From assembly GCF_001874145.1 (NCBI RefSeq), contig NZ_MPCX01000002.1:62001-126000 (forward strand): a stretch of 64,000 nucleotides of DNA. Reading direction: 5' to 3'. This document shows positions 26,516 through 58,131 of the stretch, one piece after another; the first letter of the stretch is position 1; each line of letters starts with the position of its first letter. The stretch is from Lacinutrix sp. MedPE-SW (GTDB lineage Bacteria; Bacteroidota; Bacteroidia; Flavobacteriales; Flavobacteriaceae). A program made the position numbers and the translations under genes. The notes beneath the pieces are model-generated. The model searched no databases and was not told the DNA's origin. It saw only the letters and a list, made by a program, of their open reading frames with translations.

Positions 26516-28165
26516 TTAGTTAAGGTATTTTCTATATTTTGAAGGATTATTAAGTATTTCGGTAGCTTTTTTAATTTCTGCATTATGTATTTTGTAATAA
26601 TCATATAGACCTTCTCTATACACATAACGCTTAATAATCTCGTCGCTTAATAGACTCATTAATTGCGATTTATTTTCATCTATTGCTTTTAATTTTGAAT
26701 TATTTAAATTTTCAATTAAAGCATTGTAATCTCTTTTTATATCTTCATCTAAATTTTCGGTTTTAGCAATTTCTGCAGCTTTAGCGAAAGATTTTTCGGT
26801 TTCGGTTTCAAAAGAAAAACCTGTTTTCTTTAAATAGTTTTTAAAGTTTTCAAAATCTGAATCTGTAAATTTCCATTTGTTAATATCTTCAATATTTTGA
26901 TGAGAGTAATAATATTTTGTAGCATAATCAAACACACTTTGGTTGTTTAATATAGCTGTTGTTATAGCAGAATTTTTAGAATATTCTAAAGCTTCGTCTG
27001 GTACAACGCCACCACCATCAAATACTTTTCTTCCATTTCTGGTTTTAAAGGCGTTATAGTCTTTTTGTTTTACTCTTACTGCATTTCCTTTTTCGTCTTT
27101 ATTCCAGTAATCTAATGCTTGTATACAGCGCCCAGAAGGTGTATAGTATCTAGATATAGTAACTTTTAATTGTGTACCATAGGTTAGTTTTTTTGGGCGT
27201 TGTACTAAGCCTTTACCAAAACTTCTTGCTCCTACAATTACACCTCGATCTAAATCTTGTATAGTTCCAGATACAATTTCACTGGCCGATGCACTACGAC
27301 CATTTATTAGCACAACAACAGGAATTTCTGTATCTATTGGATCTCTTTTTGTATAATATGTACGGTTGTATTTTTTTACTTTAGATTTTGTAGTTACTAC
27401 TAATTGACCTTTTGGTACAAATAAGTTAACAACATTTACGGCTTCGCTTAATAAACCTCCAGGATTACTGCGTAAGTCTAAAATTATACTTTTTGCGCCT
27501 TGTGCTTTTAAGTCTTTTAAAGCATAACCAGTTTGTTGTGAGGCTTTTTCGTTGAATTTTTTTAATACAATATAACCTGTAGTTTCATTAACCATTGAAA
27601 AATGTGGTACTGCATCAATTTCTATTTCACTTCTTTTTAATGTAGTTGTTTTAGTTTTACCTTGTCTAACGTATGTAATTGTAGTGGATGAGTTTGGTGT
27701 ACCTTTTAATAAATTTCCTGCATCGTCTTTATAATCTATAACAGTTTGTCCATCTACTTTAATTATTTCATCTCCTGCTTTTAATCCCGCTTTATCTGCT
27801 GGATAACCTTTATAAGGTTCTATAACTAATAGTTTATCTTTAAGTGTTTTTATTCTTGCACCAATACCAGTGTAATCTCCTGTACGCTTTATACGTTCTG
27901 CTTCAACATCTTGCTCATTATAAAATTGTGTATAAGGATCTAATTCATTTAGCATATTTTTAATGGCATTATCCATTAAATCTGCAGGATTAGTTTCATC
28001 TACATAATTCATATTTAACTCTTTAAAAAGCGTAGTAAATATTTCTATTTGCTTAGCAATTTCAAAAAAGTTATTGTTTGCTGTTTTAAAAGCTGTTCCT
28101 GTAAATAGTATAGCAATAGCAAATATTGGTATTAATATTTTGCGTTTTAAAATGGTCTTCATCAT
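26516..28165 (-). CDS. S41 family C-terminal processing peptidase (CtpA/Prc type)
   Basis: Periplasmic tail-specific protease of 549 residues. N-terminal signal or anchor helix (residues 8-26), helical region, PDZ domain (about 90-170, TGIGARIKTLKDKLLVIEPY ... ADKAGLKAGDEII), then the S41 core with S293 in SASASEI and K318 in RSFGKGLVQ, spaced 25 residues apart as in Prc/CtpA. A helical C-terminal domain follows. Its start overlaps the rnpA stop by 4 bp (ATGA), indicating coupling. Confidence 0.93.
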   Translation of the reverse strand: MMKTILKRKILIPIFAIAILFTGTAFKTANNNFFEIAKQIEIFTTLFKELNMNYVDETNPADLMDNAIKNMLNELDPYTQFYNEQDVEAERIKRTGDYTGIGARIKTLKDKLLVIEPYKGYPADKAGLKAGDEIIKVDGQTVIDYKDDAGNLLKGTPNSSTTITYVRQGKTKTTTLKRSEIEIDAVPHFSMVNETTGYIVLKKFNEKASQQTGYALKDLKAQGAKSIILDLRSNPGGLLSEAVNVVNLFVPKGQLVVTTKSKVKKYNRTYYTKRDPIDTEIPVVVLINGRSASASEIVSGTIQDLDRGVIVGARSFGKGLVQRPKKLTYGTQLKVTISRYYTPSGRCIQALDYWNKDEKGNAVRVKQKDYNAFKTRNGRKVFDGGGVVPDEALEYSKNSAITTAILNNQSVFDYATKYYYSHQNIEDINKWKFTDSDFENFKNYLKKTGFSFETETEKSFAKAAEIAKTENLDEDIKRDYNALIENLNNSKLKAIDENKSQLMSLLSDEIIKRYVYREGLYDYYKIHNAEIKKATEILNNPSKYRKYLN

Positions 28166-28533
28166 TCTTTTACTTTAGAATTTTGGTCATTAAATTTAGT
28201 AAAAAGCGTTTTAACTTTAGAGTTAATAAGGTTAAAATCTGGCATTTCCTTATTATTATATAATATCATAAACGAAAAACCTTCTATGTTGTTGTTTTTT
28301 AAAAATGGTTTGTTTAGCCTATAGGCTTCACGTAATAAGCGTTTAATTCTTATTCTATCTACGGCAAGTTTAAAATTTCTTTTACTTACAGATACGCCTA
28401 CTTTATTTGTTTTTTCGTTTTTTAAATAAACCAAACGCAAAGGCCATGCCGAAACACTTTTTCCTTTAAGGAAAAGGGCTTCAATCTCTTTTTTACTTTT
28501 TAGTTTTTCGGTTTTATTATAAGTAAGCTTCAT
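28162..28533 (-). CDS. rnpA: Ribonuclease P protein component
   Basis: Protein subunit of RNase P, which removes 5' leaders of pre-tRNAs; 123 residues. The RNR-motif region reads DRIRIKRLLREAYRL (about residues 74-88), preceded by KVGVSVSKRNFKLAV. In most bacteria rnpA follows rpmH; here the upstream gene is an S24-type regulator whose stop overlaps the rnpA start by 1 bp, and no rpmH is in view. rnpA is often near oriC. Confidence 0.95.
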   Translation of the reverse strand: MKLTYNKTEKLKSKKEIEALFLKGKSVSAWPLRLVYLKNEKTNKVGVSVSKRNFKLAVDRIRIKRLLREAYRLNKPFLKNNNIEGFSFMILYNNKEMPDFNLINSKVKTLFTKFNDQNSKVKE

Positions 28534-29345: not shown

Positions 29346-29417
29346 AAAAATACTTTTGTAGAAAATAATAAGCTAATATATAAATTTAATTAACAATCAA
29401 ACATTTGTTTTAATAAG

Positions 29418-29447
29418 AATAGCTTGAAATTAAACACCTTAGCTATT
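29418..29447. promoter_or_regulatory. Inverted repeat between divergent S24-regulator and DUF4175 genes
   Basis: AATAGCT (29418-29424) and AGCTATT (29441-29447), 16-nt spacer, in the 198-bp divergent promoter region. It could be an operator for the neighbouring regulator; the arms are short and the assignment is speculative. Confidence 0.25.
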
Positions 29448-29543
29448 AATCATTATTAACATTTTGCAGTTAACTATAAATAAAATAAAACTGTATTTTA
29501 GTGAGTTATAAACGATAAGTAACAATTTATACCATTTTAAACT

Positions 29544-32500
29544 TTGAATAATTTTAAAACCATACAATCTAAACTCGAACAGTTTATTAGAAAATATTAT
29601 ACTAACGAGCTTATTAAAGGTGCTATTTTATTTTTTAGTATTGGTTTATTATACTTTTTAATAACACTTTTAATAGAACATTTTTTATGGTTAAACTCTA
29701 CAGCTAGAACCATTTTATTTTGGTTATTTATTGCTGTAGAATTTGGTTTGTTTGTTAAATTTATAGTGCTACCATTAGCTAAATTATTTAAATTACAACA
29801 AGGCATTAACTATGAAAAAGCTTCAACTTTAATTGGTAATCATTTTCCAGAAGTAAGTGATAAATTACTTAATGTTTTACAGTTAAATGCGTCACAGTCT
29901 AATTCCGAATTACTTCTAGCCAGTATAAACCAAAAATCACAGGAGCTTACACCAATACCTTTTAAACTTGCTATAAATTTTAAAAAGAATATTAAATATT
30001 TAAAATATGCAGCTATACCAATAGCCATAATTGCTTTAGTAGCTATTTCTGGAAAATTAAACTGGTTTAGTGATAGCTACGAGCGCGTTGTAAATTATAA
30101 AACAGCTTACGAACCGCCAGCACCATTTCAATTTTTTGTTTTAAACTATAATCTTCAGGCAGTAGAAAATAAAAGTTTTAGATTAATTGTAAAAACCGCT
30201 GGAGACATGACTCCAGAAAATGCGCAAATTACTTATAATAACGAAACATACTTTTTACAACAACGTGGTCCAGGAGCTTTTGAGTATGTTTTCGAACAAC
30301 CAAAAAACAATATAACTTTTAATTTACTAGCAAATAACGTAAACTCTAAACCCTATACTTTAAATGTAGCTCAAGTGCCATCACTATTAAGTTTTGATAT
30401 GGTTTTAGACTATCCTTCCTATACAAAAAAGAAAGACGAAACTTTAAAAAGTACAGGTAATGCTGTTGTACCAATGGGTACAAATATTACATGGAAATTA
30501 AAAACCAAAGCAACAGAAGAAGTAAAGCTATACGCTAAAGACACTACCATTTTTACAAAAGAAAATAATGATAGTTTTTATACAACAAAACGCGTATATA
30601 ATACATTAGATTATAACATAAGTACCAGCAACACTAAATTACAAGATTACGAGAATTTAGCTTTTAATATTCAGGTAGTTAGAGATCAATATCCAGAATT
30701 AAAAATCCAGAGTAAAGTAGACTCTCTCGACTTACAAACACTATACTTTTTTGGTCAAGCTACAGATGATTATGGTTTAAAAAAATTACAATTAGTATAT
30801 TATCCTAGCGGAAAAGAAAACAATAAAAAGATTAAAAATATACCAATTTCTGGAAGTAATTATACCGAGTTTATTACTGCATTTCCTAATGCCTTAGAAA
30901 TAACCGAAGGTATAAGCTACGATTTGTATTTTGAAGTAATAGATAACGATGCTGTAGCAAAAAATAAAAGCACAAAAAGTAATGTATTTACTTATAGAAA
31001 AAGAACACAAAATGAAGAAGAGCAAAAACAATTACAAGAGCAAAACGAAACCATTCAAGATTTAAACAAATCATTAGATAAGTTTGATGAGCAACAAAAA
31101 GAATTAGAAGAACTATCTAAAACACAAAAAGAAAAATCTCAATTAAATTTTAACGATAAAAAGAAATTTGAAAGTTTTATTAAACGCCAACAGCAGCAAG
31201 AAAAAATGATGGAAAAGTTTAATAAAAAACTTCAAGATAATTTAGAAGATTTTCAAAAAGAAAACAAAGATAAAGATCAATTTAAAGAAGATTTAAAAAA
31301 GCGTTTAAAACAAAACGAAGAACAACTTAAAAAAGATGAAAAATTACTCGAAGAACTTGAAAAGTTACGAGAGAAAATGAGTAAAGAAGAATTTTCAGAG
31401 AAAATAGACAAATTAGCCAAGCAAGCAAAAAGTCAAAAAAGAAGCTTAGAACAAATGTTAGAGCTTACCAAAAGATATTACATTTTTAAAAAAATGGAAA
31501 AAATTGGTAATGAGTTAGACAAGCTTGCTAAAAAACAAGACAGCTTAGCAAATAAAAAACCACAAGAAAACACTAAAGAAAAACAAGATGCTTTAAATAA
31601 AGAATTCGAAGATATTTTAAAAGATTTAGAAGCAATTGAAAAAGAAAACAAACAATTAAAGCAACCTTTAAAACTTCCTAGAAACGAAAATAAAGAAGAA
31701 AACGTAAAAGAGGATCAAGAAAAAGCATCTGATGAATTAAAGAAAAAAGAAGAAAGTCAATCTCAAGAAGAAAAACAATCACAAAATAGTAAAGCACAAA
31801 AAAAGCAAAAATCTGCAGCTCAAAAAATGAAACAAATGAGTATGCAAATGCAATCACAAATGCAACAATCTGGTCAAGAAGCTATGCAAGAAGACATAGA
31901 AATGTTGCGTCAAATTCTAGATAATTTAGTTTTATTTTCTTTTGATGAAGAAGCGTTAATGAATAAATTTGAAAGTATAGAAGTTAACCACAATGAGTAT
32001 GCTACTTATTTAAAAAAACAAAAAAACTTACGTACACATTTTGAACATGTAGACGATAGTTTATTTGCATTATCCTTACGTCAACCCAAAATATCTGAAG
32101 ACGTAAATAAAGAAATTTCCAATGTTTATTTTAGTATAGATAAAGCATTAGCACAATTAGCCGAAAATAATTTATATCAAGGTACAGCCGCACAACAATA
32201 TACAGTTACCTCTGCAAATAATTTAGCTAATATGTTAAGCGATACCTTAGATAATTTACAAAATGCTATGGCTATGCCATCTCCAGGATCTGGTTCTGGA
32301 GAAGGCGGAATGCCACTTCCAGATATAATCATGAGTCAACAAGAACTTAATGAAATGATGAAAAAAGGAATGCAAAAAGGACAAGATGGTGAGCCACAAA
32401 GTGGAGAAGGTAATAAACCAGGAGAAAAGCCTGGAGAAAAACCAGGGCAAGGAAAAAAACCAGGTGAACAAGGAGAAAATGGAGAAGAAGGAGAAAATGG

Positions 32501-33107
32501 AAGTAAAGGAGATAAAGGCGGAAAAGGTGGAGAAAATGGAGATAGTGGAGCCAATGGTAATAATGGTAATTCTGGAAAAGGTAGTAAAGAAGGTAAAAAT
32601 GGAAAAGATGGAGAAAATGGTGATGGAAACGGAAACGGAAAAAACGGAAAAAACGAAGGTTTAAATGGATTTAGTGAAGATGTAAATGGAGAATTATTTA
32701 AAATTTACCAACAACAACAGCAATTACGTCAAGCTTTAGAAGATAAATTATTACAAGATAAAATTAGCGGAAAAGGAGAAAGTGCACAAGCAAAGCAACT
32801 TGTAAAACAAATGGAAGATGTAGAAGATAATTTAATAAATAAAGGGTTTACAAATGAAACTTTAAATAAAATGATGAATATTCAACATCAATTATTAAAA
32901 CTAGAAAAAGCAACATTACAACAAGGGCAAGATAATAAGCGTAAATCTCAAACTAATAAAAAAGAATTTAGCAATACTACAAGTAACCAAATACCAACAG
33001 CAAAAGAATATTTTAATACAACCGAAATATTGAATAAGCAAGCACTACCTTTGCAACCAGTTTACAAACAAAAAGTACAAGACTATTTTAAGCAAAATAA
33101 TGATTAG
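29544..33107 (+). CDS. Large DUF4175-type membrane protein with coiled coil and collagen-like tract
   Basis: A 1187-residue protein. Two or three N-terminal transmembrane helices (about residues 20-75 and 150-170) precede a beta-rich extracytoplasmic region (about 180-480). Next comes a long Lys/Glu/Gln-rich coiled coil (about 485-780) ending in a Met/Gln-rich stretch, and a Gly-X-Y-like tract (about 945-1038: GEQGENGEEGENGSKGDKGG and similar) before a helical C-terminus. I recognise the pattern of DUF4175-family Bacteroidetes proteins; function unknown. The start is TTG 29544: a stop lies two codons upstream and no early ATG exists. It overlaps ybeY by 8 bp. Confidence 0.8.
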   Translation: MNNFKTIQSKLEQFIRKYYTNELIKGAILFFSIGLLYFLITLLIEHFLWLNSTARTILFWLFIAVEFGLFVKFIVLPLAKLFKLQQGINYEKASTLIGNHFPEVSDKLLNVLQLNASQSNSELLLASINQKSQELTPIPFKLAINFKKNIKYLKYAAIPIAIIALVAISGKLNWFSDSYERVVNYKTAYEPPAPFQFFVLNYNLQAVENKSFRLIVKTAGDMTPENAQITYNNETYFLQQRGPGAFEYVFEQPKNNITFNLLANNVNSKPYTLNVAQVPSLLSFDMVLDYPSYTKKKDETLKSTGNAVVPMGTNITWKLKTKATEEVKLYAKDTTIFTKENNDSFYTTKRVYNTLDYNISTSNTKLQDYENLAFNIQVVRDQYPELKIQSKVDSLDLQTLYFFGQATDDYGLKKLQLVYYPSGKENNKKIKNIPISGSNYTEFITAFPNALEITEGISYDLYFEVIDNDAVAKNKSTKSNVFTYRKRTQNEEEQKQLQEQNETIQDLNKSLDKFDEQQKELEELSKTQKEKSQLNFNDKKKFESFIKRQQQQEKMMEKFNKKLQDNLEDFQKENKDKDQFKEDLKKRLKQNEEQLKKDEKLLEELEKLREKMSKEEFSEKIDKLAKQAKSQKRSLEQMLELTKRYYIFKKMEKIGNELDKLAKKQDSLANKKPQENTKEKQDALNKEFEDILKDLEAIEKENKQLKQPLKLPRNENKEENVKEDQEKASDELKKKEESQSQEEKQSQNSKAQKKQKSAAQKMKQMSMQMQSQMQQSGQEAMQEDIEMLRQILDNLVLFSFDEEALMNKFESIEVNHNEYATYLKKQKNLRTHFEHVDDSLFALSLRQPKISEDVNKEISNVYFSIDKALAQLAENNLYQGTAAQQYTVTSANNLANMLSDTLDNLQNAMAMPSPGSGSGEGGMPLPDIIMSQQELNEMMKKGMQKGQDGEPQSGEGNKPGEKPGEKPGQGKKPGEQGENGEEGENGSKGDKGGKGGENGDSGANGNNGNSGKGSKEGKNGKDGENGDGNGNGKNGKNEGLNGFSEDVNGELFKIYQQQQQLRQALEDKLLQDKISGKGESAQAKQLVKQMEDVEDNLINKGFTNETLNKMMNIQHQLLKLEKATLQQGQDNKRKSQTNKKEFSNTTSNQIPTAKEYFNTTEILNKQALPLQPVYKQKVQDYFKQNND

Positions 33108-33510
33108 TTTTAATTACGAAAATAACTTTAAGCTTCCTAATGAAGCAAAAATTAGCACATGGATTTCTTCTGTAATTTTACAAGAAAACTGTGTTGAAGA
33201 AGAAATAAATTATGTTTTTTGTGATGATGAATATCTTCATAAATTAAATGTAGAATTTTTAAATCACGACACTTTAACAGACATTATTAGCTTTGATTAT
33301 TCAGTAGGAAAAAACCTACAAGGAGATATATTTATTTCAACGGAAAGAGTAGAGGATAACGCGAAAGATTTTAATGTTTCTTTTGAAACAGAATTACAGC
33401 GTGTACTCGTTCATGGTATTTTACACTATTGTGGTTATAAAGATAAATCTGATAGTGAAGCAAAACTAATGCGAGAAAAAGAAAACTTCTACCTTAATCT
33501 GCTTAAATAG
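33100..33510 (+). CDS. ybeY: rRNA maturation endoribonuclease YbeY
   Basis: Single-strand RNase involved in 16S rRNA 3' maturation and ribosome quality control; 136 residues, slightly shorter than E. coli YbeY (155). The metal motif reads HGILHYCGYKDKS: H105 and H109 are kept, but the position of the third canonical His (HGxLHxxGYDH) is D115. Upstream, LNHDTLTDIISFDY and GDIFISTERV are typical. It starts inside the 3' end of the DUF4175 gene, so translation is probably coupled. Confidence 0.93.
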   Translation: MISFNYENNFKLPNEAKISTWISSVILQENCVEEEINYVFCDDEYLHKLNVEFLNHDTLTDIISFDYSVGKNLQGDIFISTERVEDNAKDFNVSFETELQRVLVHGILHYCGYKDKSDSEAKLMREKENFYLNLLK

Positions 33511-33527
33511 AATTAACTAATTCGTTG

Positions 33528-33535
33528 TATATTTG
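33528..33535 (+). promoter_or_regulatory. -7 box TATATTTG, likely promoter of mnmG
   Basis: Exact TAnnTTTG match just after the ybeY stop. The resulting leader to ATG 33719 (about 180 nt) would contain both upstream parS sites. Confidence 0.45.
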
Positions 33536-33561
33536 CAAACTGAATTTTTTTAAAAGCAATT

Positions 33562-33577
33562 TGTTCCACGTGGAACA
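33562..33577. promoter_or_regulatory. parS site 1 (ParB-binding centromere site)
   Basis: TGTTCCACGTGGAACA, a perfect 16-bp palindrome fitting the bacterial parS consensus TGTTNCACGTGNAACA at every defined position. Confidence 0.85.
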
Positions 33578-33582
33578 GTATG

Positions 33583-33594
33583 TTCAATATTGAA
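33583..33594. repeat. 12-bp palindrome between parS sites
   Basis: TTCAATATTGAA, a perfect palindrome 6 bp after parS site 1. It could be incidental in AT-rich DNA or a binding site. Confidence 0.3.
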
Positions 33595-33626
33595 TAAATT
33601 TGTTTTTTATGTGAAATGTTTTTAAA

Positions 33627-33642
33627 TGTTTCACGTGGAACA
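33627..33642. promoter_or_regulatory. parS site 2
   Basis: TGTTTCACGTGGAACA fits the consensus TGTTNCACGTGNAACA at all defined positions, 65 bp from site 1. A GTGAAA (33611-33616) upstream also forms a partial inverted repeat with its left half. Confidence 0.85.
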
Positions 33643-33718
33643 TGTAAAATAATTAATAAAAATCATTTAATCTATTAACTATATTGTAGATTAAATTTAA
33701 TATAAAGTATTTAAAATT

Positions 33719-35590
33719 ATGTTTAACGAAGTATACGATGTTATAGTAGTTGGAGCAGGACATGCAGGAAGTGAAGCTGCTGCTGCTGCTGCAAATATGG
33801 GTTCTAAAACATTGCTTATAACAATGAATTTACAAAACATTGCGCAAATGTCTTGTAATCCTGCTATGGGCGGAATTGCTAAAGGACAAATAGTTCGCGA
33901 GATTGATGCGCTTGGTGGATACTCTGGTATTGTAAGTGATACTTCTGCTATACAATTTAAAATGCTTAATAAATCTAAAGGTCCTGCAATGTGGTCACCA
34001 AGAGTACAAAGTGACCGTATGCGTTTTGCAGAAGATTGGAGATTGCTTTTAGAGCAAACTCAAAATCTTGATTTTTATCAAGAAATGGTATCTGGCTTGG
34101 TGGTTGAAAATGGTAAGGTTGTAGGTGTAAAAACCTCTTTAGGAATCACAGTAAAAGCTAAATCTGTAGTATTAACTAATGGTACTTTTTTAAATGGTTT
34201 AATACATATTGGAGATAAAAATTTTGGTGGAGGTAGAGCAGGAGAAAGAGCAGCTACAGGAATTACAGAACAACTTATAGAGTTAGGTTTTGAATCTGGT
34301 AGAATGAAAACAGGAACACCACCAAGAGTAGATGGTCGTTCTCTAGATTATTCTAAAATGATTGAACAACCTGGAGATTTAAATCCAGAAAAGTTTTCTT
34401 ATTTAGATACTACAAAACCATTAGAGAATCAGCGTTCTTGTTTTATGACTTATACAAGCGAAAAAGTTCACGATTTATTACGTGAAGGTTTCGATCGCTC
34501 ACCAATGTTTAATGGTAGAATTAAAAGTTTAGGACCAAGATATTGTCCTTCGATAGAAGATAAAATTAACCGTTTTGCAGATAAAGATAGACATCAATTG
34601 TTTGTAGAACCAGAAGGTTGGAATACTGTAGAAATGTATATAAATGGATTTTCAACTTCATTGCCAGAAGATGTTCAATTTAATGCATTACGATCTGTAG
34701 CAGGATTTGAGAATGTAAAATTCTTTAGACCTGGTTATGCGATAGAGTACGATTATTTTCCACCAACGCAATTAAAACATACTCTAGAAACTAAGTTAGT
34801 TGATGGTTTATATTTTGCAGGTCAAATTAATGGTACTACTGGTTATGAAGAAGCAGCTTCTCAAGGGTTAATGGCTGGTATAAATGCAGCTTTAAAAGTG
34901 CAAGAAAAAGATTCTTTTATATTACAACGTAATGAAGCTTATATAGGTGTTCTTATAGACGATTTAATTACTAAAGGTACAGAAGAACCTTATAGAATGT
35001 TTACTTCACGTGCAGAATATAGAACGCTTTTAAGGCAAGATAATGCAGATATTAGATTAACACCAAGAGGTTACGCTTTAGGTTTAGCTAGTGAAAAACG
35101 TTTAAAAAGAATGGAGGAGAAGCTTAATGCTTCAAATCAATTTGTACAGTTTTTTAAAGACACTAGTGTAACGGCTAATGATGCTAATGTGGTTTTAGAA
35201 TCTAAAAATTCTGCATCAGTTAAACAGCAAGGTAAGATGTTTAAATTGTTTGCAAGGCCAAATATTGATATGGATGATATGCGTAAATTTGAAAAAGTTG
35301 AAACATATATTCAAGAAAATAATCTTGACAGAGAAGTTTTAGAACAAGCAGAAATTCAAGTTAAATATGCTGGTTATATTTCTAAAGAAAAAAACAATGC
35401 TGATAAATTAAACCGACTTGAGAATATTAAAATACCACCTAATTTTAATTACTCACAGTTAAAATCTATGAGTTTAGAAGCAAGAGAAAAATTAAATAAA
35501 ATTCAACCAGTTACTATTTCTCAAGCATCAAGAATTAGTGGTGTATCACCTGCAGATATTTCTGTGCTTTTAGTTTTTATGGGAAGATAA
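33719..35590 (+). CDS. mnmG: tRNA uridine-5-carboxymethylaminomethyl modification enzyme MnmG (GidA)
   Basis: FAD-dependent partner of MnmE that modifies U34 of several tRNAs; 623 residues, normal length. FAD-binding GAGHAGSEAA near the N-terminus, the MnmG motif CNPAMGGIAKG (about residues 47-57), GTPPRVDGRS, FAGQINGTTGYEEAASQG, and the C-terminal helical ISGVSPADISVLL. In many bacteria this gene sits at the replication origin, and here it is flanked by parS sites on both sides. It probably has its own promoter. Confidence 0.97.
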   Translation: MFNEVYDVIVVGAGHAGSEAAAAAANMGSKTLLITMNLQNIAQMSCNPAMGGIAKGQIVREIDALGGYSGIVSDTSAIQFKMLNKSKGPAMWSPRVQSDRMRFAEDWRLLLEQTQNLDFYQEMVSGLVVENGKVVGVKTSLGITVKAKSVVLTNGTFLNGLIHIGDKNFGGGRAGERAATGITEQLIELGFESGRMKTGTPPRVDGRSLDYSKMIEQPGDLNPEKFSYLDTTKPLENQRSCFMTYTSEKVHDLLREGFDRSPMFNGRIKSLGPRYCPSIEDKINRFADKDRHQLFVEPEGWNTVEMYINGFSTSLPEDVQFNALRSVAGFENVKFFRPGYAIEYDYFPPTQLKHTLETKLVDGLYFAGQINGTTGYEEAASQGLMAGINAALKVQEKDSFILQRNEAYIGVLIDDLITKGTEEPYRMFTSRAEYRTLLRQDNADIRLTPRGYALGLASEKRLKRMEEKLNASNQFVQFFKDTSVTANDANVVLESKNSASVKQQGKMFKLFARPNIDMDDMRKFEKVETYIQENNLDREVLEQAEIQVKYAGYISKEKNNADKLNRLENIKIPPNFNYSQLKSMSLEAREKLNKIQPVTISQASRISGVSPADISVLLVFMGR

Positions 35591-35597
35591 ATTTAAG

Positions 35598-35613
35598 TGT
35601 TCCACGTGGAACG
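35598..35613. promoter_or_regulatory. parS site 3
   Basis: TGTTCCACGTGGAACG: 15 of 16 positions fit the parS palindrome, with only the last base departing. It lies 7 bp after the mnmG stop codon. Confidence 0.75.
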
Positions 35614-35664: not shown

Positions 35665-36519
35665 GTGCAAAATTCAAAAAAAATAAACTTTAAAGTAAAA
35701 GATTATTCTGTTTCTGGAGAAACATTTACTTTAATACACAATAATGAATTCGATTATTTAGAAACCGTACCTAAACCGTCTTTAAACAAACTACCTGAAT
35801 ATTATAAAAGCGAAGATTATATTTCTCACACAAATGCTAAACGAAATTTGTTTGAAAATGTATACCATCAAGTAAGAGCATATTCCTTAAAGAAAAAAGT
35901 AAAACTTATAAACTCATTTAATACTGAGAGCAAAAATATTTTAGATTTTGGTTGTGGTACAGGTGCTTTTTTAAATGAAGCACAAAATCAAGGTTGGAAT
36001 ATTACAGGAATAGAACCAGATGAAAAAGCAAGAATTCTAGCCAATACTCAAACTAATAATGCTGTTTTACCTAGTCAAGATTTTAATACTTTACCAGAAA
36101 AAAGTTTTGATGTTATTACACTTTGGCATGTATTAGAACATATACCAGATTTACAAGAAAAAATATCTCAATTAAAAAAACTATTAAAAGAAAATGGTAC
36201 TTTAATTATTGCTGTACCTAATTATAATAGTTTTGATGCAAAACACTATAAATCGTTTTGGGCTGCTTTTGATGTTCCTAGACATTTATGGCATTTTTCA
36301 AAAAAATCTATAACTACACTTTTTGCTAGAGAAAAAATGAAAGTTGTAAAAATAAAACCAATGCTATTTGATGCATTTTATGTAAGCTTACTTTCAGAAA
36401 AATATAAAACATCAAAAATGAATCCTATTAAATCTTTTTATACAGGATTGCTTTCAAATTTTAAAGCTATACGCTCTGGAGAGTATTCTTCTCTAATTTA
36501 TGTAATAAAAAACATGTAA
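35665..36519 (+). CDS. Class I SAM-dependent methyltransferase
   Basis: A 284-residue cytoplasmic protein with motif I ILDFGCGTGAFLNEA (about residues 92-106), an acidic motif II (GIEPDEKA) and FDVITLWHVLEHIPD, as in UbiE/Coq5-like methyltransferases. Its C-terminal part (PRHLWHFSKKSITTLF) is like that of methyltransferases acting on lipids or sugars. Substrate unknown. The open frame begins with GTG at 35665, 75 bp after mnmG; no ATG occurs nearby in frame. A likely terminator follows at about 36.6 kb. Confidence 0.85.
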   Translation: MQNSKKINFKVKDYSVSGETFTLIHNNEFDYLETVPKPSLNKLPEYYKSEDYISHTNAKRNLFENVYHQVRAYSLKKKVKLINSFNTESKNILDFGCGTGAFLNEAQNQGWNITGIEPDEKARILANTQTNNAVLPSQDFNTLPEKSFDVITLWHVLEHIPDLQEKISQLKKLLKENGTLIIAVPNYNSFDAKHYKSFWAAFDVPRHLWHFSKKSITTLFAREKMKVVKIKPMLFDAFYVSLLSEKYKTSKMNPIKSFYTGLLSNFKAIRSGEYSSLIYVIKNM

Positions 36520-36747: not shown

Positions 36748-37260
36748 ATGAAAAAATTAGTTTTAGTATTTGTAGCAATAATATTTTTATCTGCTTGTGA
36801 GCAACAAAAAATTGGATATGTTGATAACGGAAAAGTTATTAATGAAATTCAAGAGAAAAAAGATATAGAATCTAAATACACACTTTTAGATGAATCTTTC
36901 AAAAAAAGAGCAGATAGTATTGGAAATGTTTATAGAACAGAATTTCAAGCATTGCAAACTAAATATGCAAGAGCTTCTCAACAAAAGCAGCAAGAGATGA
37001 TGATGCCTTTGCAAGCTAAAGCACAAAAATTTCAACAGGAAATGCAAAACGAACAAACGCAAATGCAAACTGCTTATCAAACAGAAATTGATTCTGTAAT
37101 TTCAAAAATGAAACTGTATGTTAAAGATTATGCTAAAAACAACGGTTATAACTACATTTTTGGTACTAATGAGTCTGTAGGAACAGTATTATATGGAGAT
37201 GAAGGATCAGATATTTCTCAAAATATTATTGATGGATTAAACGATAGTTATAAAAAATAA
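36748..37260 (+). CDS. OmpH/Skp-like periplasmic lipoprotein
   Basis: A 170-residue protein resembling the periplasmic chaperone Skp/OmpH: an N-terminal KIGYVDNGKVI strand, then a long Gln/Lys/Met-rich helical arm (KKRADSIGNVYRTEFQALQT ... KAQKFQQEMQNEQTQMQ) and a final beta element (NYIFGTNESVGTVLYGDEG). It has a lipobox LSAC (C17), so it is likely lipid-anchored, unlike soluble Skp. Monocistronic, with its own promoter and terminator. Confidence 0.88.
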   Translation: MKKLVLVFVAIIFLSACEQQKIGYVDNGKVINEIQEKKDIESKYTLLDESFKKRADSIGNVYRTEFQALQTKYARASQQKQQEMMMPLQAKAQKFQQEMQNEQTQMQTAYQTEIDSVISKMKLYVKDYAKNNGYNYIFGTNESVGTVLYGDEGSDISQNIIDGLNDSYKK

Positions 37261-44352: not shown

Positions 44353-45942
44353 ATGAAAATTTATTATCAATATTCAATATTATTTGTATTATTCTCTTTT
44401 TTAAATGTGAGTAATGCTCAGGATTCTACACAATTAAATAAAAAAAGATTGTCAGAATCTCAATTAGTAGCAGGAGAAAAATATGTAATAGACACCATTA
44501 TAGATGGCAAAGCATTATTTAAGCAATCTATAGAACCTGTTGAACCTGTTGACTTAACAAAAGAGTTACAAGATCACGAGTTAGCATCAGAGATTGATAA
44601 AAAATGGATGGAAGAACTTTATAGTACGTCCTTATTCGATACTATTTATCGTGAAGTAACAAACCTTAAATACGAAGCTGTATATTACCCAGAACTTACA
44701 ACAGATACTTTAAAAGCAAGATTAGAGAGGTTAAATGCAAGAACACCATTTAATGTAGAATACAATCCGCAATTAGAAAATTTAATAAAACGTTGGCTAA
44801 AAACTAGACATCAATCTATGGAGCGATTAATGGGTTTAAGCAAGTATTACTTTCCAATGTTTGAGCGGGAACTAGATAACTATAACATTCCTTTAGAGAT
44901 GAAATATCTCTCAATAGTAGAGTCTGCACTAAAACCAAGAGCAAAATCTAGAGTTGGCGCAACAGGATTGTGGCAATTTATGTTTGCAACCGGGAAGCAA
45001 TATGGTTTAGATGTTAGTAGTTATGTAGACGAGCGTAGCGACCCAATAAAATCTACAGAATCTGCTGCAAAATACTTAGCAAAATTATATGAGATTTTTG
45101 GAGATTGGGATTTAGCGTTAGCAGCATATAACTCTGGTCCAGGCAATGTAAGCAAAGCAATAAGACGTTCTGGCGGTTATAAAAATTATTGGAATATTCG
45201 TTCTAATTTACCACGTGAAACAGCAGGTTATGTTCCTGCGTTTTTAGCAACAATGTATATTTTTGAATACGCAAAAGAACACGGTTTTATACAGCATAAA
45301 CCAAAGTTTAATTATGTAGAGACAGATACTATAAGAGTAAAGCAAATGATTACTCTAGATCAAGTATCAGAGTTTACAGGTGTAAATATTGAAACACTTC
45401 AGTTTTTAAATCCATCATATAAATTAGATATCATTCCATATATAAAAGGAAAAAATTATACATTAAGACTACCTAGAACTATAGTTGGTGCTTTTGTAAA
45501 TAATGAAGCACAAATGTATGCTTTTGCAAAAGCTGAATTCGATAAACGAGAAAAACCACTACCTCAATTAGTACAATCAGACACCAAAACTAGATATCGC
45601 GTTAAGCAAGGAGATTATTTAGGTAAAATAGCAAGAAAGTTTGGAGTAAGAGTGAGTCAAATAAAACGATGGAATGGTTTAAGAAGTAATAATTTAAAAA
45701 TAGGACAAAGGTTAACTATTTTTCCAAGAAACCCATCAGCAGTAACCAAAAAAGCAGTAAAAGCAAACACTTCAAACCTTTCAAATTATACAGGAAAAAC
45801 ATACAAAGTAAAAAGTGGCGACTCTTTATGGAGTATTTCTCAAAAATTTCCAGGAATTTCTGTTGAAAATATTAAAGAATGGAACGATATTAGTGGTACT
45901 AAATTAAAACCAGGTATGACCTTGAAAATTTCAAAAGGTTAA
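44353..45942 (+). CDS. Lytic transglycosylase with two LysM domains (MltD-like)
   Basis: A 529-residue exported murein hydrolase. Signal peptide (cleavage near NAQDS). SLT catalytic domain (about residues 170-300) with catalytic E190 in SIVESALKPRAKSR and the motif VGATGLWQFM, then AAYNSGPGN. Two C-terminal LysM repeats (about 413-457, YRVKQGDYLGKIARKFGV; about 485-528, YKVKSGDSLWSISQKF) bind peptidoglycan. It cleaves the glycan strand to 1,6-anhydro products. It is followed 22 bp later by the DUF4837 gene. Confidence 0.93.
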   Translation: MKIYYQYSILFVLFSFLNVSNAQDSTQLNKKRLSESQLVAGEKYVIDTIIDGKALFKQSIEPVEPVDLTKELQDHELASEIDKKWMEELYSTSLFDTIYREVTNLKYEAVYYPELTTDTLKARLERLNARTPFNVEYNPQLENLIKRWLKTRHQSMERLMGLSKYYFPMFERELDNYNIPLEMKYLSIVESALKPRAKSRVGATGLWQFMFATGKQYGLDVSSYVDERSDPIKSTESAAKYLAKLYEIFGDWDLALAAYNSGPGNVSKAIRRSGGYKNYWNIRSNLPRETAGYVPAFLATMYIFEYAKEHGFIQHKPKFNYVETDTIRVKQMITLDQVSEFTGVNIETLQFLNPSYKLDIIPYIKGKNYTLRLPRTIVGAFVNNEAQMYAFAKAEFDKREKPLPQLVQSDTKTRYRVKQGDYLGKIARKFGVRVSQIKRWNGLRSNNLKIGQRLTIFPRNPSAVTKKAVKANTSNLSNYTGKTYKVKSGDSLWSISQKFPGISVENIKEWNDISGTKLKPGMTLKISKG

Positions 45943-52507: not shown

Positions 52508-53575
52508 ATGAGCGAAATCAACAAGCATGAGCCAAAATCTAAAAACGAAGAGGTTGATTTAATTGTTTTTTTTAATTTAATCGGGAAAGCTTTAAATAAA
52601 GTTTTCGTTTTTATAGCATCATTATTAAAAGCTATATTTTCTGTAATTATTGGTATTATAAAGGTAATTATTGCAAGCTGGAAAATTATATTAGCTATAC
52701 TAATTATTGCAGGAGTATTGGGTTATGCTCTTGAAAAAACAAAACCTATCACCTATAGCTCAGAGATGCTGGTCGAGCCTTATTTTGATTCAAAATACCA
52801 ATTAGTAACTAATATTAATTATTTTAATGCTTTAATCGCTTCGGGCGATACACAGGCGCTAAATGCTATATTTAGTTCAGATACTTCAGATTTAGATATT
52901 AGAGATATAAAAGGGTTTAAAATTGAACCAGGTCCAGAAACAGAAAATGATAGAATTTTACAATATCAAAATTTTTCAAGACGATTAGACTCTGTAAGAA
53001 AAGAAGAAATTAATTTTGAAGAATATATAGAGAATAGAAGCATATACTCAGGACGTTTATTTTTAATTACCGCCTATTCAAGTAAAAGAGACATCTTTAA
53101 AAATCTTGAAAAAGGTGTTCTATCTGCTTTCACAAATCAATATTCTGAAGAAGAGTTTTTCAAAAAAGAACAATTAAGAGAAATTCAAAGACAAAACTTA
53201 TTAACCCAACTTCAAGAAATAGATAGTTTAAAAACCTTTTATCTTAGAGTAAGAGAAGACGAATCTAAAAAAACAAATAAACAGTTAAAGTTGGGAGACA
53301 TTTCTTTATCTAGTGACAGTAAGTCTACCACTCGAGAATTTGAATTATTAGAAAAAGAAAACAACGTAAGAAACCAATTAAATGCTTTAGAAGAGCAAAA
53401 AATAGAACAAGACAAAGTGTTTGATGTAATCTCTAGTTTTCAACGAGTTGGAAACCAAAACATATCTATTTTAGATAGGTACTCACTTATATTTCCAATT
53501 TTAGCTTTTATGTTATTATGTCTTTTTTATATAATAAAAAGAGTTATAATTTTTGCTAAAAACTATGAAGAATAA
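52508..53575 (+). CDS. Wzz-like polysaccharide chain-length/co-polymerase protein (copy 2)
   Basis: A 355-residue tandem paralog of the preceding gene, with the same EEVDLIVFFNLIG N-terminus, two helices (about 57-73 and 330-347) and a similar periplasmic block (YSSEMLVEPYFDSKYQLVTN; copy 1 has YSEMFVAPKFQSKYELINN). Overall they look divergent, so the duplication is not recent. Overlaps the rfbB start by 11 bp. Confidence 0.75.
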   Translation: MSEINKHEPKSKNEEVDLIVFFNLIGKALNKVFVFIASLLKAIFSVIIGIIKVIIASWKIILAILIIAGVLGYALEKTKPITYSSEMLVEPYFDSKYQLVTNINYFNALIASGDTQALNAIFSSDTSDLDIRDIKGFKIEPGPETENDRILQYQNFSRRLDSVRKEEINFEEYIENRSIYSGRLFLITAYSSKRDIFKNLEKGVLSAFTNQYSEEEFFKKEQLREIQRQNLLTQLQEIDSLKTFYLRVREDESKKTNKQLKLGDISLSSDSKSTTREFELLEKENNVRNQLNALEEQKIEQDKVFDVISSFQRVGNQNISILDRYSLIFPILAFMLLCLFYIIKRVIIFAKNYEE

Positions 53576-54581
53576 TACAGTTTTAATTACTGGTGGCGCA
53601 GGTTTTATAGGATCTAACTTTATACCTTTTTTTTTAGAAAGCAATCCTAATACAAGAGTTGTAAACCTAGACAAATTAACCTATGCAGGAGACCTTTCTA
53701 ATATACAAGAACTAGAGGGTAACAAAAGATACATTTTTGTAAAAGGAGATATTTGTAATAGGCAACTAATAGAAAATCTATTTAACGAATATGAATTTTC
53801 TGGAGTTATACATTTTGCAGCAGAATCTCACGTAGATAATTCTATAAAAAATCCTAGTGCATTTATAGACACTAATATTACAGGAACATTTAATTTAATA
53901 GATGTTGCAAAAAAGTTTTGGATGCACGGTCCGCAAGACTATAAACAAGAGTATCTTGGTGCAAGATTTCATCATATATCAACAGATGAGGTTTATGGTA
54001 CATTAGAAAAAACAGGTTTGTTTACAGAGCAAACGCCATATGCTCCAAATAGCCCATATAGTGCCTCTAAAGCATCATCAGATTTTATTGTAAGAAGCTA
54101 TTTTCACACTTATGGTATGAATGTAGTAACTACAAATTGTTCTAATAATTATGGACCAAAACAACATGACGAAAAGTTAATTCCAACAATAATTAGAAAA
54201 GCCATTTCAGGAGAACACATTCCAATTTATGGAGACGGTAAAAACATTAGAGATTGGTTATATGTTTTAGACCATTGTAAAGGAATTGAATTAGCTTATA
54301 AAAAAGGCAAAGCAGGAGAAACCTATAATATTGGAGGTAGAAATGAAAGAGACAATTTGTATATTGTAAATACAATTTGTGAAATTTTAGACCAAATTAT
54401 ACCTGCAAACCATTCCTATAAAAAACAAATTAGCTTTGTTAAAGATAGACCTGGACACGATTTTAGATATGCTATAGACGCTTCTAAAATAGAAGAAGAA
54501 CTAGGATGGAAAGCAAATGAAAATTTTGAATCAGGAATTAAAAAAACTGTAAATTGGTATTTAAATAAATACAAAGCATAA
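53565..54581 (+). CDS. rfbB: dTDP-glucose 4,6-dehydratase
   Basis: Second step of dTDP-L-rhamnose synthesis; 338 residues, an SDR enzyme. NAD-binding [10 protein letters not shown], the active-site THDEVYG-type segment [12 protein letters not shown], and YSASK (catalytic Tyr-Lys). The start is placed at ATG 53565 ([11 protein letters not shown]); the frame opens 12 bp earlier at a TTG, which is less likely. It overlaps the end of Wzz copy 2. First of rfbBACD. Confidence 0.96.
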
Positions 54582-54588
54582 ATACATT

Positions 54589-55452
54589 ATGAAAGGAATA
54601 ATATTGGCAGGTGGATCAGGAACCCGTTTACACCCATTAACTTTAGCGGTAAGTAAGCAATTGATGCCAATATATGATAAGCCTATGATATATTATCCTT
54701 TATCAACCTTAATGTGGTCTGGTATAAAAGATATTTTAATAATCTCTACACCTAAAGATTTACCATTATTTGAAGCGCTTTTAGGAGATGGAAAAAAATA
54801 TGGTTGTACATTTCAATATGCAGTACAAGAAGAACCAAACGGCCTAGCCGAAGCTTTTATAATTGGAGAAGATTTTATAGGAAATGATAAAGTAGCCTTA
54901 ATATTAGGAGATAATATTTTTTATGGTACCGGTTTAGAAAACTTATTACAACAAAATAACAATCCTCAAGGCGGAATAATATATGCTTATCATGTTCATG
55001 ACCCAGAGCGTTATGGTGTTGCAGAGTTTGATGAAAACGGAACTGTTATTTCTATAGAAGAAAAACCAAAGCAGCCTAAGTCTAATTACGCCATACCAGG
55101 TATATATTTTTATGATAATGATGTTGTAGAAATTGCTAAAAACATAAAACCAAGCCATAGAGGAGAATTAGAAATAACCGATGTAAATAAAGCCTATTTA
55201 AAACAAGGTAAACTACAAGTAAGTGTACTAGATAAGGGAACCGCATGGCTAGATACAGGAACATTTAAATCTCTTATGCAGGCTTCTCAATTTGTTCAAG
55301 TTATAGAAGAGCGTCAAGGTTTAAAAATTGGAGCAATAGAAGAAGTTGCGTACAAAATGGGATACATTTCAAAACAACAGTTACAAAACCTTATACAACC
55401 ACTTATAAAAAGTGGTTACGGTAAACACTTGTTAAGCATTTTAGAACAATAA
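54589..55452 (+). CDS. rfbA: Glucose-1-phosphate thymidylyltransferase
   Basis: Forms dTDP-glucose from dTTP and glucose-1-phosphate, the first step of dTDP-L-rhamnose synthesis; 287 residues. Nucleotidyl-transferase motif [20 protein letters not shown] at the N-terminus, [24 protein letters not shown], and GTAWLDTGT. Seven bp from rfbB. Confidence 0.97.
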
Positions 55453-55470
55453 ATCCTAATTTTATAATTA

Positions 55471-56019
55471 ATGGACGTTATCCAAACCAAATTAAAAGAC
55501 TGCTTTATTTTACAACCTAAAATTTTTGAAGACAAAAGAGGCTATTTTTTTGAAAGCTTTAATGAGAACACATTTCATCAATTAACAGGATCAAATACAA
55601 CATTTGTTCAAGATAATGAATCTTTTTCTACAAAAGGCGTGTTAAGAGGTTTGCATTACCAAACAGGAAAACATGCTCAAGCCAAATTAGTTCGTGTAAT
55701 AAAAGGAAGCGTTTTAGATGTTGCTGTAGACTTAAGAAAAGAGTCTAATACATTTGGTCAGCACATTTCAGTTGAGCTAACAGAATCCAATAAAAAGCAG
55801 TTGTTTGTACCTAGAGGGTTTGCACATGGGTTTATTGTTTTAAGTGACACAGCTATATTTTCTTATAAATGTGATAACTATTACAATAAAGCATCCGAAG
55901 CCGGAATTATTTATAATGATAAAGATTTAAATATAGATTGGAAATTAAATGAAAATCAATTTTTAGTTTCAGAAAAAGATGAAATACTTCCATCATTTAA
56001 AAATGCAATATTATCATGA
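55471..56019 (+). CDS. rfbC: dTDP-4-dehydrorhamnose 3,5-epimerase
   Basis: Third step of dTDP-L-rhamnose synthesis; a 182-residue cupin-fold epimerase. RGYFFESFNENTF, the catalytic His region GVLRGLHYQTGKHAQAKLVR, and FVPRGFAHGFIVLSD. Its stop overlaps the rfbD start (ATGA). Confidence 0.96.
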   Translation: MDVIQTKLKDCFILQPKIFEDKRGYFFESFNENTFHQLTGSNTTFVQDNESFSTKGVLRGLHYQTGKHAQAKLVRVIKGSVLDVAVDLRKESNTFGQHISVELTESNKKQLFVPRGFAHGFIVLSDTAIFSYKCDNYYNKASEAGIIYNDKDLNIDWKLNENQFLVSEKDEILPSFKNAILS

Positions 56020-56873
56020 TTACTAACGTATTAGTAACAGGCGGAAACGGTCAATTAGCACAAACTATAAAAGAACATTATTTTAAAAACAATAATAATA
56101 TACATTTTACATTTGTAACTAAAGCAGATTTAGATTTAACAAAATATAATCAAGTTGAAAACCTATTTGCTTCAAATAAATTTAACTACTGTATAAATTG
56201 TGCTGCATATACTAATGTAGAGCAAGCTGAAGATTTTAAAGAATTAGCATTTCATGTAAACGCAGAAGCAGTTAAATATTTAGCTATTATATGTAATAAA
56301 AACAACACGAAACTAATTCATGTATCTACAGACTATGTATTTAATGGCGAAAAAAAAGAACCTTATTTAGAAATAGATACAACAAATCCTATAAACAATT
56401 ACGGCGCTTCAAAACTAAAAGGTGAAGTTTATATAGCTGAAAATATTCAGGATTATTTTATTATTAGAACCTCTTGGTTATATTCTAAATTTGGCAAAAA
56501 CTTTTATAAAACGATAAAAGAAAAAATAGAAAACAATGCCGATTTAAAAATTACGGTAGCAGAAACTGGTACACCAACCAGTTGTGTAGATTTAGCCCAA
56601 GCTATTTATTTTTTAATAACATCTAAAAACATAAATTATGGCTTGTATCACTTTAGTAATAACGGTCAAGCAACTTGGTATGATTTTACCATAGAAATTG
56701 CGAAATTAATTGGTAATTATAATATAGATAAAATTCAACCAGTGCCATTTTTTAAAACAAAAGCTAAACGCCCAAAATTTAGTGTGTTAGATAAAAATAA
56801 AATAAGTACCATTTTACCACAAGAGATTCCTCACTGGAAAGATGCTTTAAAAGTATTAATAAATACTAAATAA
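56016..56873 (+). CDS. rfbD: dTDP-4-dehydrorhamnose reductase
   Basis: Last step of dTDP-L-rhamnose synthesis; a 285-residue SDR-type reductase. Nucleotide-binding VTGGNGQLAQ, CAAYTNVEQAE, STDYVFNG and the catalytic YGASKLKGE. With rfbB, rfbA and rfbC it completes the four-gene pathway in this operon. Confidence 0.95.
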   Translation: MITNVLVTGGNGQLAQTIKEHYFKNNNNIHFTFVTKADLDLTKYNQVENLFASNKFNYCINCAAYTNVEQAEDFKELAFHVNAEAVKYLAIICNKNNTKLIHVSTDYVFNGEKKEPYLEIDTTNPINNYGASKLKGEVYIAENIQDYFIIRTSWLYSKFGKNFYKTIKEKIENNADLKITVAETGTPTSCVDLAQAIYFLITSKNINYGLYHFSNNGQATWYDFTIEIAKLIGNYNIDKIQPVPFFKTKAKRPKFSVLDKNKISTILPQEIPHWKDALKVLINTK

Positions 56874-56874
56874 A

Positions 56875-58131
56875 ATGAATGACAAAATTGCTATTATAGG
56901 CTTAGGCTACGTGGGTTTACCATTAGCTATTGCGTTTACAAATAAAGGGTTTAATGTTATTGGTTTCGATATTAGTCTTTCAAGAGTAAAAGAACTTAAA
57001 AAAAATAAAGATCACACCTTAGAGGTGTCTGAAGAGGCATTAAAACAGGCAAAAACTTTAAAATTCACAAATACAATTAACGATTTAAGTGTTGCTAATA
57101 TATTTATAGTTACCGTACCAACACCAATAACAAAACACAAGTTTCCAGATTTAACACCTATTATAAAAGCTAGTGAGACTATTGCTAAGGTTTTAAAAAA
57201 AGGAAATATAGTAATTTATGAATCTACAGTTTATCCTGGGTGTACCGAAGAGGTTTGTGCACCAATACTAGAAAACAATAGTGGTTTAAAATTTAATAAA
57301 GATTTCTATTGTGGTTATTCTCCAGAGCGTATTAATCCGGGAGATAAAACACATACAATTAATAATATTATTAAAGTAACCTCTGGAAGCACACCAGATA
57401 CAGCAACAAAAGTAGATGAGTTATATAAAAAAATTATAGACGCAGGAACTCATAAAACAAGCTCAATTAAAATTGCAGAAGCAGCTAAAGTAATAGAAAA
57501 CACGCAACGCGATTTAAACATAGCTTTTATAAATGAATTAGCTATTATTTTTGATAAACTAAATATAGACACAACACAGGTTTTAGCAGCAGCGGGTACA
57601 AAATGGAATTTTTTACCTTTTACACCAGGCTTGGTTGGTGGTCATTGCATTGGTGTGGACCCATATTATTTAACCTACAAGGCAGAGTCTGTAGGCTATC
57701 ATCCAGAAGTAATACTTGCAGGAAGACGAATTAATGCTAATATGGGAATATTTGTAGTTAATAAACTTATAAAACAATTAGCATTAAGAGGACATGAAAT
57801 TAAATCATCGAAAGTTTTAATTCTTGGTATTACTTTTAAAGAAAACTGTCCAGATATTAGAAACACAGGAGTTATAGATGTAATTAAGGAGCTAAAAGAG
57901 TTTGGTATGGAAGTAGATGTTTATGATTCTTTTGCAAATAAAAATGAAGTGCTAAAAGAATATAAACTAGAATTAATAACAGAATTGAATAAAAAATATA
58001 GTGCTGTAATTCTAGCAGTAAAACATGAGAAGTTCAAAAAACTAAGTTGGCAGAATTTTACAGATAAAGAAACTGTAGTGTTTGACCTAAAGGGCTTTCT
58101 GCCAGACAATATAGCTACCATTAGATTGTAA
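56875..58131 (+). CDS. Nucleotide-sugar dehydrogenase (UDP-GlcNAc/GalNAc 6-dehydrogenase type)
   Basis: A 418-residue UDP-glucose/UDP-mannose dehydrogenase-family enzyme that would oxidise the C6 of a UDP-sugar to the uronic acid. N-terminal Rossmann motif GLGYVGLPLAIAF, the YSPERINPGDK motif, and catalytic Cys in GGHCIGVDPYYL. The closest pattern is TviB/WbpA-like rather than UDP-glucose dehydrogenase, but the substrate is not certain from sequence. One bp after rfbD. Confidence 0.9.
   Translation: MNDKIAIIGLGYVGLPLAIAFTNKGFNVIGFDISLSRVKELKKNKDHTLEVSEEALKQAKTLKFTNTINDLSVANIFIVTVPTPITKHKFPDLTPIIKASETIAKVLKKGNIVIYESTVYPGCTEEVCAPILENNSGLKFNKDFYCGYSPERINPGDKTHTINNIIKVTSGSTPDTATKVDELYKKIIDAGTHKTSSIKIAEAAKVIENTQRDLNIAFINELAIIFDKLNIDTTQVLAAAGTKWNFLPFTPGLVGGHCIGVDPYYLTYKAESVGYHPEVILAGRRINANMGIFVVNKLIKQLALRGHEIKSSKVLILGITFKENCPDIRNTGVIDVIKELKEFGMEVDVYDSFANKNEVLKEYKLELITELNKKYSAVILAVKHEKFKKLSWQNFTDKETVVFDLKGFLPDNIATIRL

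Follow-up and report, generated by a model that had tools for sequence, protein, structure and literature searches.

Chromosomal ParABS systems such as those of Bacillus subtilis and Caulobacter crescentus are characterized by the parS palindrome, by adjacent parA and parB genes, and by a clustering of the parS sites near the replication origin. The origin neighborhood of Proteobacteria and Firmicutes holds rnpA, mnmG, and parAB, and rnpA is a common neighbor of oriC in phyla other than Bacteroidota. For Bacteroidetes, oriC is described in an extract of PMC4755523 as commonly lying far from dnaA, and in gut species, origins placed from GC skew and parS match read coverage and do not always coincide with dnaA (PMC10197239, in the text consulted). 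Within the Flavobacteriaceae, the oriC of Mariniflexile litorale was predicted beside mnmG by Ori-Finder in agreement with GC skew, with dnaA out of line with the skew (PMC11278836, in part), and for an Algorimicrobium strain, Ori-Finder and GC skew likewise gave mnmG as the origin (PMC12843772, in part).

The window analyzed here is a stretch of 64,000 nucleotides, G000:C12:62001-126000, from a draft genome of 3.04 Mb in 22 contigs. A motif scan of the window located three parS-like sites around mnmG, two of them identical to the palindrome TGTTNCACGTGNAACA and the third with a single, terminal mismatch (Table 1). The arrangement described in the initial annotation, with two sites in the mnmG leader and one just after the stop codon, was reproduced in its coordinates: sites 1 and 2 end 141 bp and 76 bp ahead of the mnmG ATG, and site 3 starts 7 bp after the stop. 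With up to three mismatches allowed, the window contains 13 matches to parS, compared to a mean of 2.86 and a maximum of 9 in 100 shuffles. These three palindromes are very probably docking sites for ParB. A site with two mismatches at 45207-45222, 9.6 kb after mnmG, was considered as a fourth conserved parS and rejected. It sits in a LysM/SLT gene, and counterparts with one to three mismatches are found in 13 of the 36 relatives in which this gene was found; because every counterpart overlies the conserved peptide LPRET, its recurrence is explained by coding.

Table 1. Positions of the parS sites, mnmG, and neighboring features in the window
Feature	Position	Strand	Description or evidence
parS site 1	33562..33577		perfect palindrome TGTTCCACGTGGAACA; motif scans of window and genome
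parS site 2	33627..33642		TGTTTCACGTGGAACA; motif scans of window and genome
parS site 3	35598..35613		TGTTCCACGTGGAACG, one terminal mismatch; 7 bp past the mnmG stop
mnmG (gidA), bracketed by parS sites	33719..35590	+	PF01134, E 5.4e-164; TIGR00136 above cut-off
mnmG leader	33511..33718		208 bp, 81% A+T, contains parS sites 1 and 2; sequence composition
ybeY, upstream neighbor	33100..33510	+	PF02130, E 2.2e-30
Methyltransferase-family protein, downstream neighbor	35665..36519	+	PF13489, E 4.6e-31
OmpH-like protein	36748..37260	+	PF03938, E 3.5e-23
rnpA	28162..28533	-	PF00825, E 5.6e-21
Candidate origin zone	29346..33718		divergent intergenic gap 29346-29543, skew minimum at about 30746, mnmG leader

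Elsewhere in the window, the stretch 53553-58131 encodes enzymes for the synthesis of dTDP-rhamnose-type sugars along with a UDP-sugar dehydrogenase (PF16363, PF00483, PF00908, PF04321, PF03721), and these genes are possibly part of a surface-polysaccharide cluster.

The check originally proposed for the cluster was that most matches in the genome should fall in it, and this is what a genome scan returned. Four parS sites were found with at most one mismatch, of which three, including both exact ones, lie within 2.05 kb at mnmG, and the fourth, TGTTGCACTTGCAACA, is on contig C19. At the same threshold, the reversed pattern used as a control gave one match in the genome. Based on the composition of contig C12, 0.008 exact and 0.39 one-mismatch sites are expected per genome; the count outside mnmG is thus at chance level, and the C19 site was rejected as a further parS, whereas the mnmG cluster, with two exact sites 65 bp apart, is not at chance level. 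The sites around mnmG are therefore rare in the genome and clustered, as are chromosomal parS sites.

One ParA-ParB operon is encoded, on another contig. The genome contains a single ParB_N match, on contig C17, with a ParA-like ATPase gene directly upstream, and the ParB sequence matches solved ParB/Spo0J chains (7bnk, E 2.8e-53; 1vz0, E 1.8e-50). When its GERR, GKKR, and GHGR stretches are placed by eye on the numbering of PMC7383237, of which parts were consulted, they read R173 and G201, the parS-type residues, and not the Q and R of the Noc type. Position 184, by the same placement, is K as in Noc proteins; this position is variable among ParB and nearly invariant in Noc (PMC7383237, same parts). 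Proteins with a ParB_N domain are encoded in addition to the chromosomal ParB in G089, G094, and G016 (about 600 amino acids) and in G026 (336 amino acids). A search for ScpA (PF02616, E 0.001) gave no match in 22 of 22 genomes, G000 among them, although a diverged kleisin is possible; the control search was positive in B. subtilis and eight others. By this search, no ScpA of an SMC-ScpAB partner is found. According to an extract of PMC10197239, no known condensin was found in the two Bacteroidetes studied there.

The initial annotation also stated that parS normally lies near oriC. By GC skew this holds for the present sites, within a wide interval, and by gene markers it does not, given that dnaA (contig C10) and parAB (C17) are both off the mnmG contig C12. 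Along C12, the cumulative GC skew is lowest near position 30746 of the window, between mnmG and rnpA, which lies about 5 kb ahead of mnmG, both genes falling within about 7.5 kb. The change-point of the skew is at about 31 kb in the window, with a strength equaled or exceeded in 4 of 2000 block permutations and a 90% interval of 9 to 68 kb, which extends beyond the end of the window. The gene rnpA may be left over from an ancestral origin neighborhood.

A closed genome of the same genus, G069, was profiled in 20 sampled stretches. Its skew is negative in each of the six windows sampled between 165 and 1010 kb and positive in each of the eight sampled between 1320 and 2495 kb; in between, at 1155-1175 kb, it is 0.000, and the start of mnmG (1174 kb) falls in this stretch. 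The sign of this change is that of an origin and not of a terminus; one figure legend of PMC11278836 labels mnmG as ter, contrary to that paper's own text, as far as the parts consulted go. In G069, dnaA is at base 427, so that the turn at mnmG is 1.17 Mb away from it. Among four further genera, the skew switches cleanly around parS in G011 and rises in G016 and G045, where some windows keep their sign.

These profiles bear on the strongest alternative, namely that the parS cluster lies away from the origin and that replication starts near dnaA or elsewhere. Such a separation would suit the large distance between dnaA and mnmG in 17 of 17 single-contig genomes, and E. coli-type DnaA boxes give no support to mnmG: the 317-kb contig C12 has no cluster of at least three within 400 bp when one mismatch is allowed, nor is there any concentration near mnmG in 63 relatives and the window, and these boxes, with the E. 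coli consensus as the only one used, were rejected as a locator of oriC. The window at dnaA in G069 is positive (+0.022), but it is a single one flanked by values of -0.019 and -0.081, and no lasting switch from negative to positive is seen at dnaA in G069, nor any such switch in the sampled windows of G011, G016, and G045. G019 is ambiguous, as the skew sign changes 60 to 200 kb before parS and a slow rise also crosses dnaA. An origin elsewhere is disfavored by the skew, which turns at mnmG or close to it in three genomes (G000, G069, and G011) and rises in two more (G016 and G045). The published work cited above, in the parts consulted, points the same way: oriC is often far from dnaA in Bacteroidetes (PMC4755523), in gut species, read coverage bears out origins placed from skew and parS, which are not always at dnaA (PMC10197239), and oriC is predicted at mnmG in two Flavobacteriaceae (PMC11278836, PMC12843772). 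We consider an origin distant from the parS cluster improbable.

The relative positions of the genes were compared in 17 of 22 genomes, with G017 (mnmG displaced), G099 (sequence partly N), and G018, G063, and G085 (several contigs) left out. Eight of the genome lengths are exact and nine rounded; for G077, whose mnmG lies past the rounded value, 4.05 Mb was used. As fractions of genome length, the distances are 0.21-0.47 for mnmG-dnaA (sd 0.068), 0.21-0.41 for mnmG-parB (sd 0.054), and 0.02-0.45 for dnaA-parB (sd 0.141). The two distances involving mnmG are thus less variable than dnaA-parB (Levene p 0.0008 and 0.0001, respectively, kinship being ignored), a pattern to be expected from inversions whose axis of symmetry passes through mnmG. 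The window probably holds the replication origin as well as the parS sites, with the position of oriC inferred to within tens of kilobases. This placement at mnmG is an independent confirmation of what is already in print for two Flavobacteriaceae.

The association of parS with mnmG is widely conserved. Exact parS sites are present in 93 of 100 family genomes, including G000, and the reversed control gave none in each of them; among the matches listed, which cover 47 of these 93 genomes, an exact site lies at most 500 bp from mnmG in 46. In six of the seven family genomes without an exact site, mnmG is flanked on both sides by sites with one or two mismatches. The seventh, G099, was dropped because its sequence is partly N; no mnmG, ybeY, or exact parS is listed for it, and one site with one mismatch. 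In the 22 single- or few-contig genomes, a site with at most one mismatch adjoins mnmG in 20.

A second set consisted of 80 named relatives, the best 80 of at least 592 candidates, several of them metagenome-assembled genomes (MAGs) and some with doubtful labels. Within 1 kb of mnmG, a site with at most one mismatch is present upstream in 75 of the 80, downstream in 68, and on both sides in 67, in a set where some loci stop short of 1 kb on one side. Relatives with sites range from Olleya, Winogradskyella, and Algibacter to Chryseobacterium, and Algoriphagus and Emticicia have upstream sites only. By the same threshold and distance, there is no upstream site in L098, L099, L100, L110, and L126 and no downstream site in 12 relatives. 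When 63 full-length loci and the window are compared outside the mnmG bins, the six 9-mers shared most widely are pieces of parS and its edge.

In a sample of the phylum, exact parS occurs in 44 of 60 genomes, the other 16 being judged on exact sites alone. Among the matches listed, covering 41 of the 44, an exact site is at most 10 kb from mnmG in 40 and at most 500 bp in 37; outside the family of G000, the 10-kb figure is 36 of 36 among the matches listed. Exact sites within 1 kb flank mnmG on both sides in 12 of these 41 genomes and on one side in 26, again by exact sites among the matches listed. All of these counts over genomes ignore kinship.

Individual loci depart from the common form. 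The mnmG leaders of L068, a Kordia MAG, and L093, an uncultured member of the Flavobacteriaceae, contain two copies of the variant TGTTCCACATGGAACA, in which the central CG is replaced by CA, indicating a possible shift in ParB specificity; L097, another Kordia MAG, has a canonical parS site. In the Flavobacterium loci L064, L067, and L070, a stretch of about 1.2 kb upstream of mnmG carries an array of 6 to 10 parS-like sites (at most one mismatch).

Such closeness to mnmG in most of the 80 relatives, together with two sites in the leader and one directly past the stop, might be expected if the palindromes were operators or other regulatory elements of mnmG, bound by a transcription factor or by ParB as a local repressor, with no centromere involved. 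An exceptional genome, G017, argues against this. Its mnmG is at 1277 kb, and its three exact parS sites are at 997-999 kb, about 280 kb away. Two of the sites bracket a relative of the methyltransferase-family protein encoded downstream of mnmG in the window (51% identity), a relative of the OmpH-like protein (40% identity) is also by parS, and a relative of the window's RNase R (61% identity) is about 3 kb from the nearest site. No parS-like site with two or fewer mismatches is present in 20 kb around the displaced mnmG. The skew profile of G017 is noisy and not decisive. Because parS stayed with its old neighbors in G017, the sites belong to a chromosomal place more than to mnmG. An operator of mnmG is also at odds with the location of one site 3' of the mnmG stop and with the fit of the sites to the ParB consensus in a genome that encodes ParB. 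We therefore regard a purely regulatory role as even less probable than a distant origin, while a local effect on mnmG besides the centromere role is possible. Chance palindromes, for which the shortness of the motif might speak, are in effect refuted by the genome scan, with two exact sites 65 bp apart where 0.008 are expected, and by the recurrence of the same sites at mnmG across genera in the 80 named relatives.

The suggestion of the initial annotation that this window contains the chromosomal centromere is thus supported by the rarity of the sites, the ParA-ParB operon, the skew, and the conservation. We are highly confident that the palindromes are the chromosomal parS sites of a ParABS system, clustered near the origin defined by skew, with dnaA and parAB elsewhere. 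By analogy with the known family, ParB-CTP dimers would load at the parS sites and slide outward over mnmG and its neighbors, and the partition complex formed by ParB would be moved by ParA, so that the newly replicated origin region would be segregated first. In Flavobacteriaceae, the origin zone and the centromere would both be located at mnmG, with dnaA and parAB elsewhere.

More broadly, we lean toward the view that the centromere of Bacteroidota is a conserved set of parS sites at mnmG, often on both of its sides, at an origin that dnaA and parAB have left, and that it operates without SMC-ScpAB. If so, parS and mnmG together would be a usable landmark of the origin in a phylum where dnaA is a misleading guide, and mnmG and rnpA would be what is left of an ancestral origin neighborhood. 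The position of dnaA often sets the start of a genome and the position assigned to its origin, which is misleading in Flavobacteriaceae, and a 16-bp palindrome at mnmG offers an easy marker of both origin and centromere, and draft genomes can be scanned for it. It indicates, in addition, a ParABS system in genomes in which the usual partner ScpA was not found (PF02616, 22 genomes).

Compared to the chromosomal ParABS of B. subtilis (Spo0J-parS) and C. crescentus (ParB-parS), as described in the consulted parts of PMC7333895 and PMC7383237, the system reported here shares the 16-bp palindrome, the adjacent genes for ParA and ParB, and the clustering of sites near the origin. It differs in that parAB is on another contig, and 0.21-0.41 of the genome length away in 17 relatives, and in that there is no ScpA (PF02616) in 22 of 22 genomes including G000, the latter comparison being made on ScpA alone. 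As in the origin neighborhood of Proteobacteria and Firmicutes, mnmG and rnpA are within about 7.5 kb of each other; unlike there, dnaA and parAB are on other contigs. The parS clusters of gut Bacteroidetes, studied by Hi-C and GC skew, resemble the present case in that parS and skew mark an origin not always located at dnaA, but they concern other organisms, and mnmG is unmentioned in the text consulted (PMC10197239). Mariniflexile litorale and the Algorimicrobium strain are, like G000, Flavobacteriaceae with an origin at mnmG and not at dnaA in the parts of PMC11278836 and PMC12843772 consulted; the word parS is absent from both main texts, and no link to a centromere is made. Among literature titles and the openings of abstracts, we found no description of parS beside mnmG in Bacteroidota, and one may exist elsewhere, for example in the parS survey of Livny (2007). 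In conclusion, ParABS is a known kind of system and an origin at mnmG has been published for two flavobacteria, and the recurrent association of parS with mnmG across the phylum sample is the less familiar part of the findings presented here.
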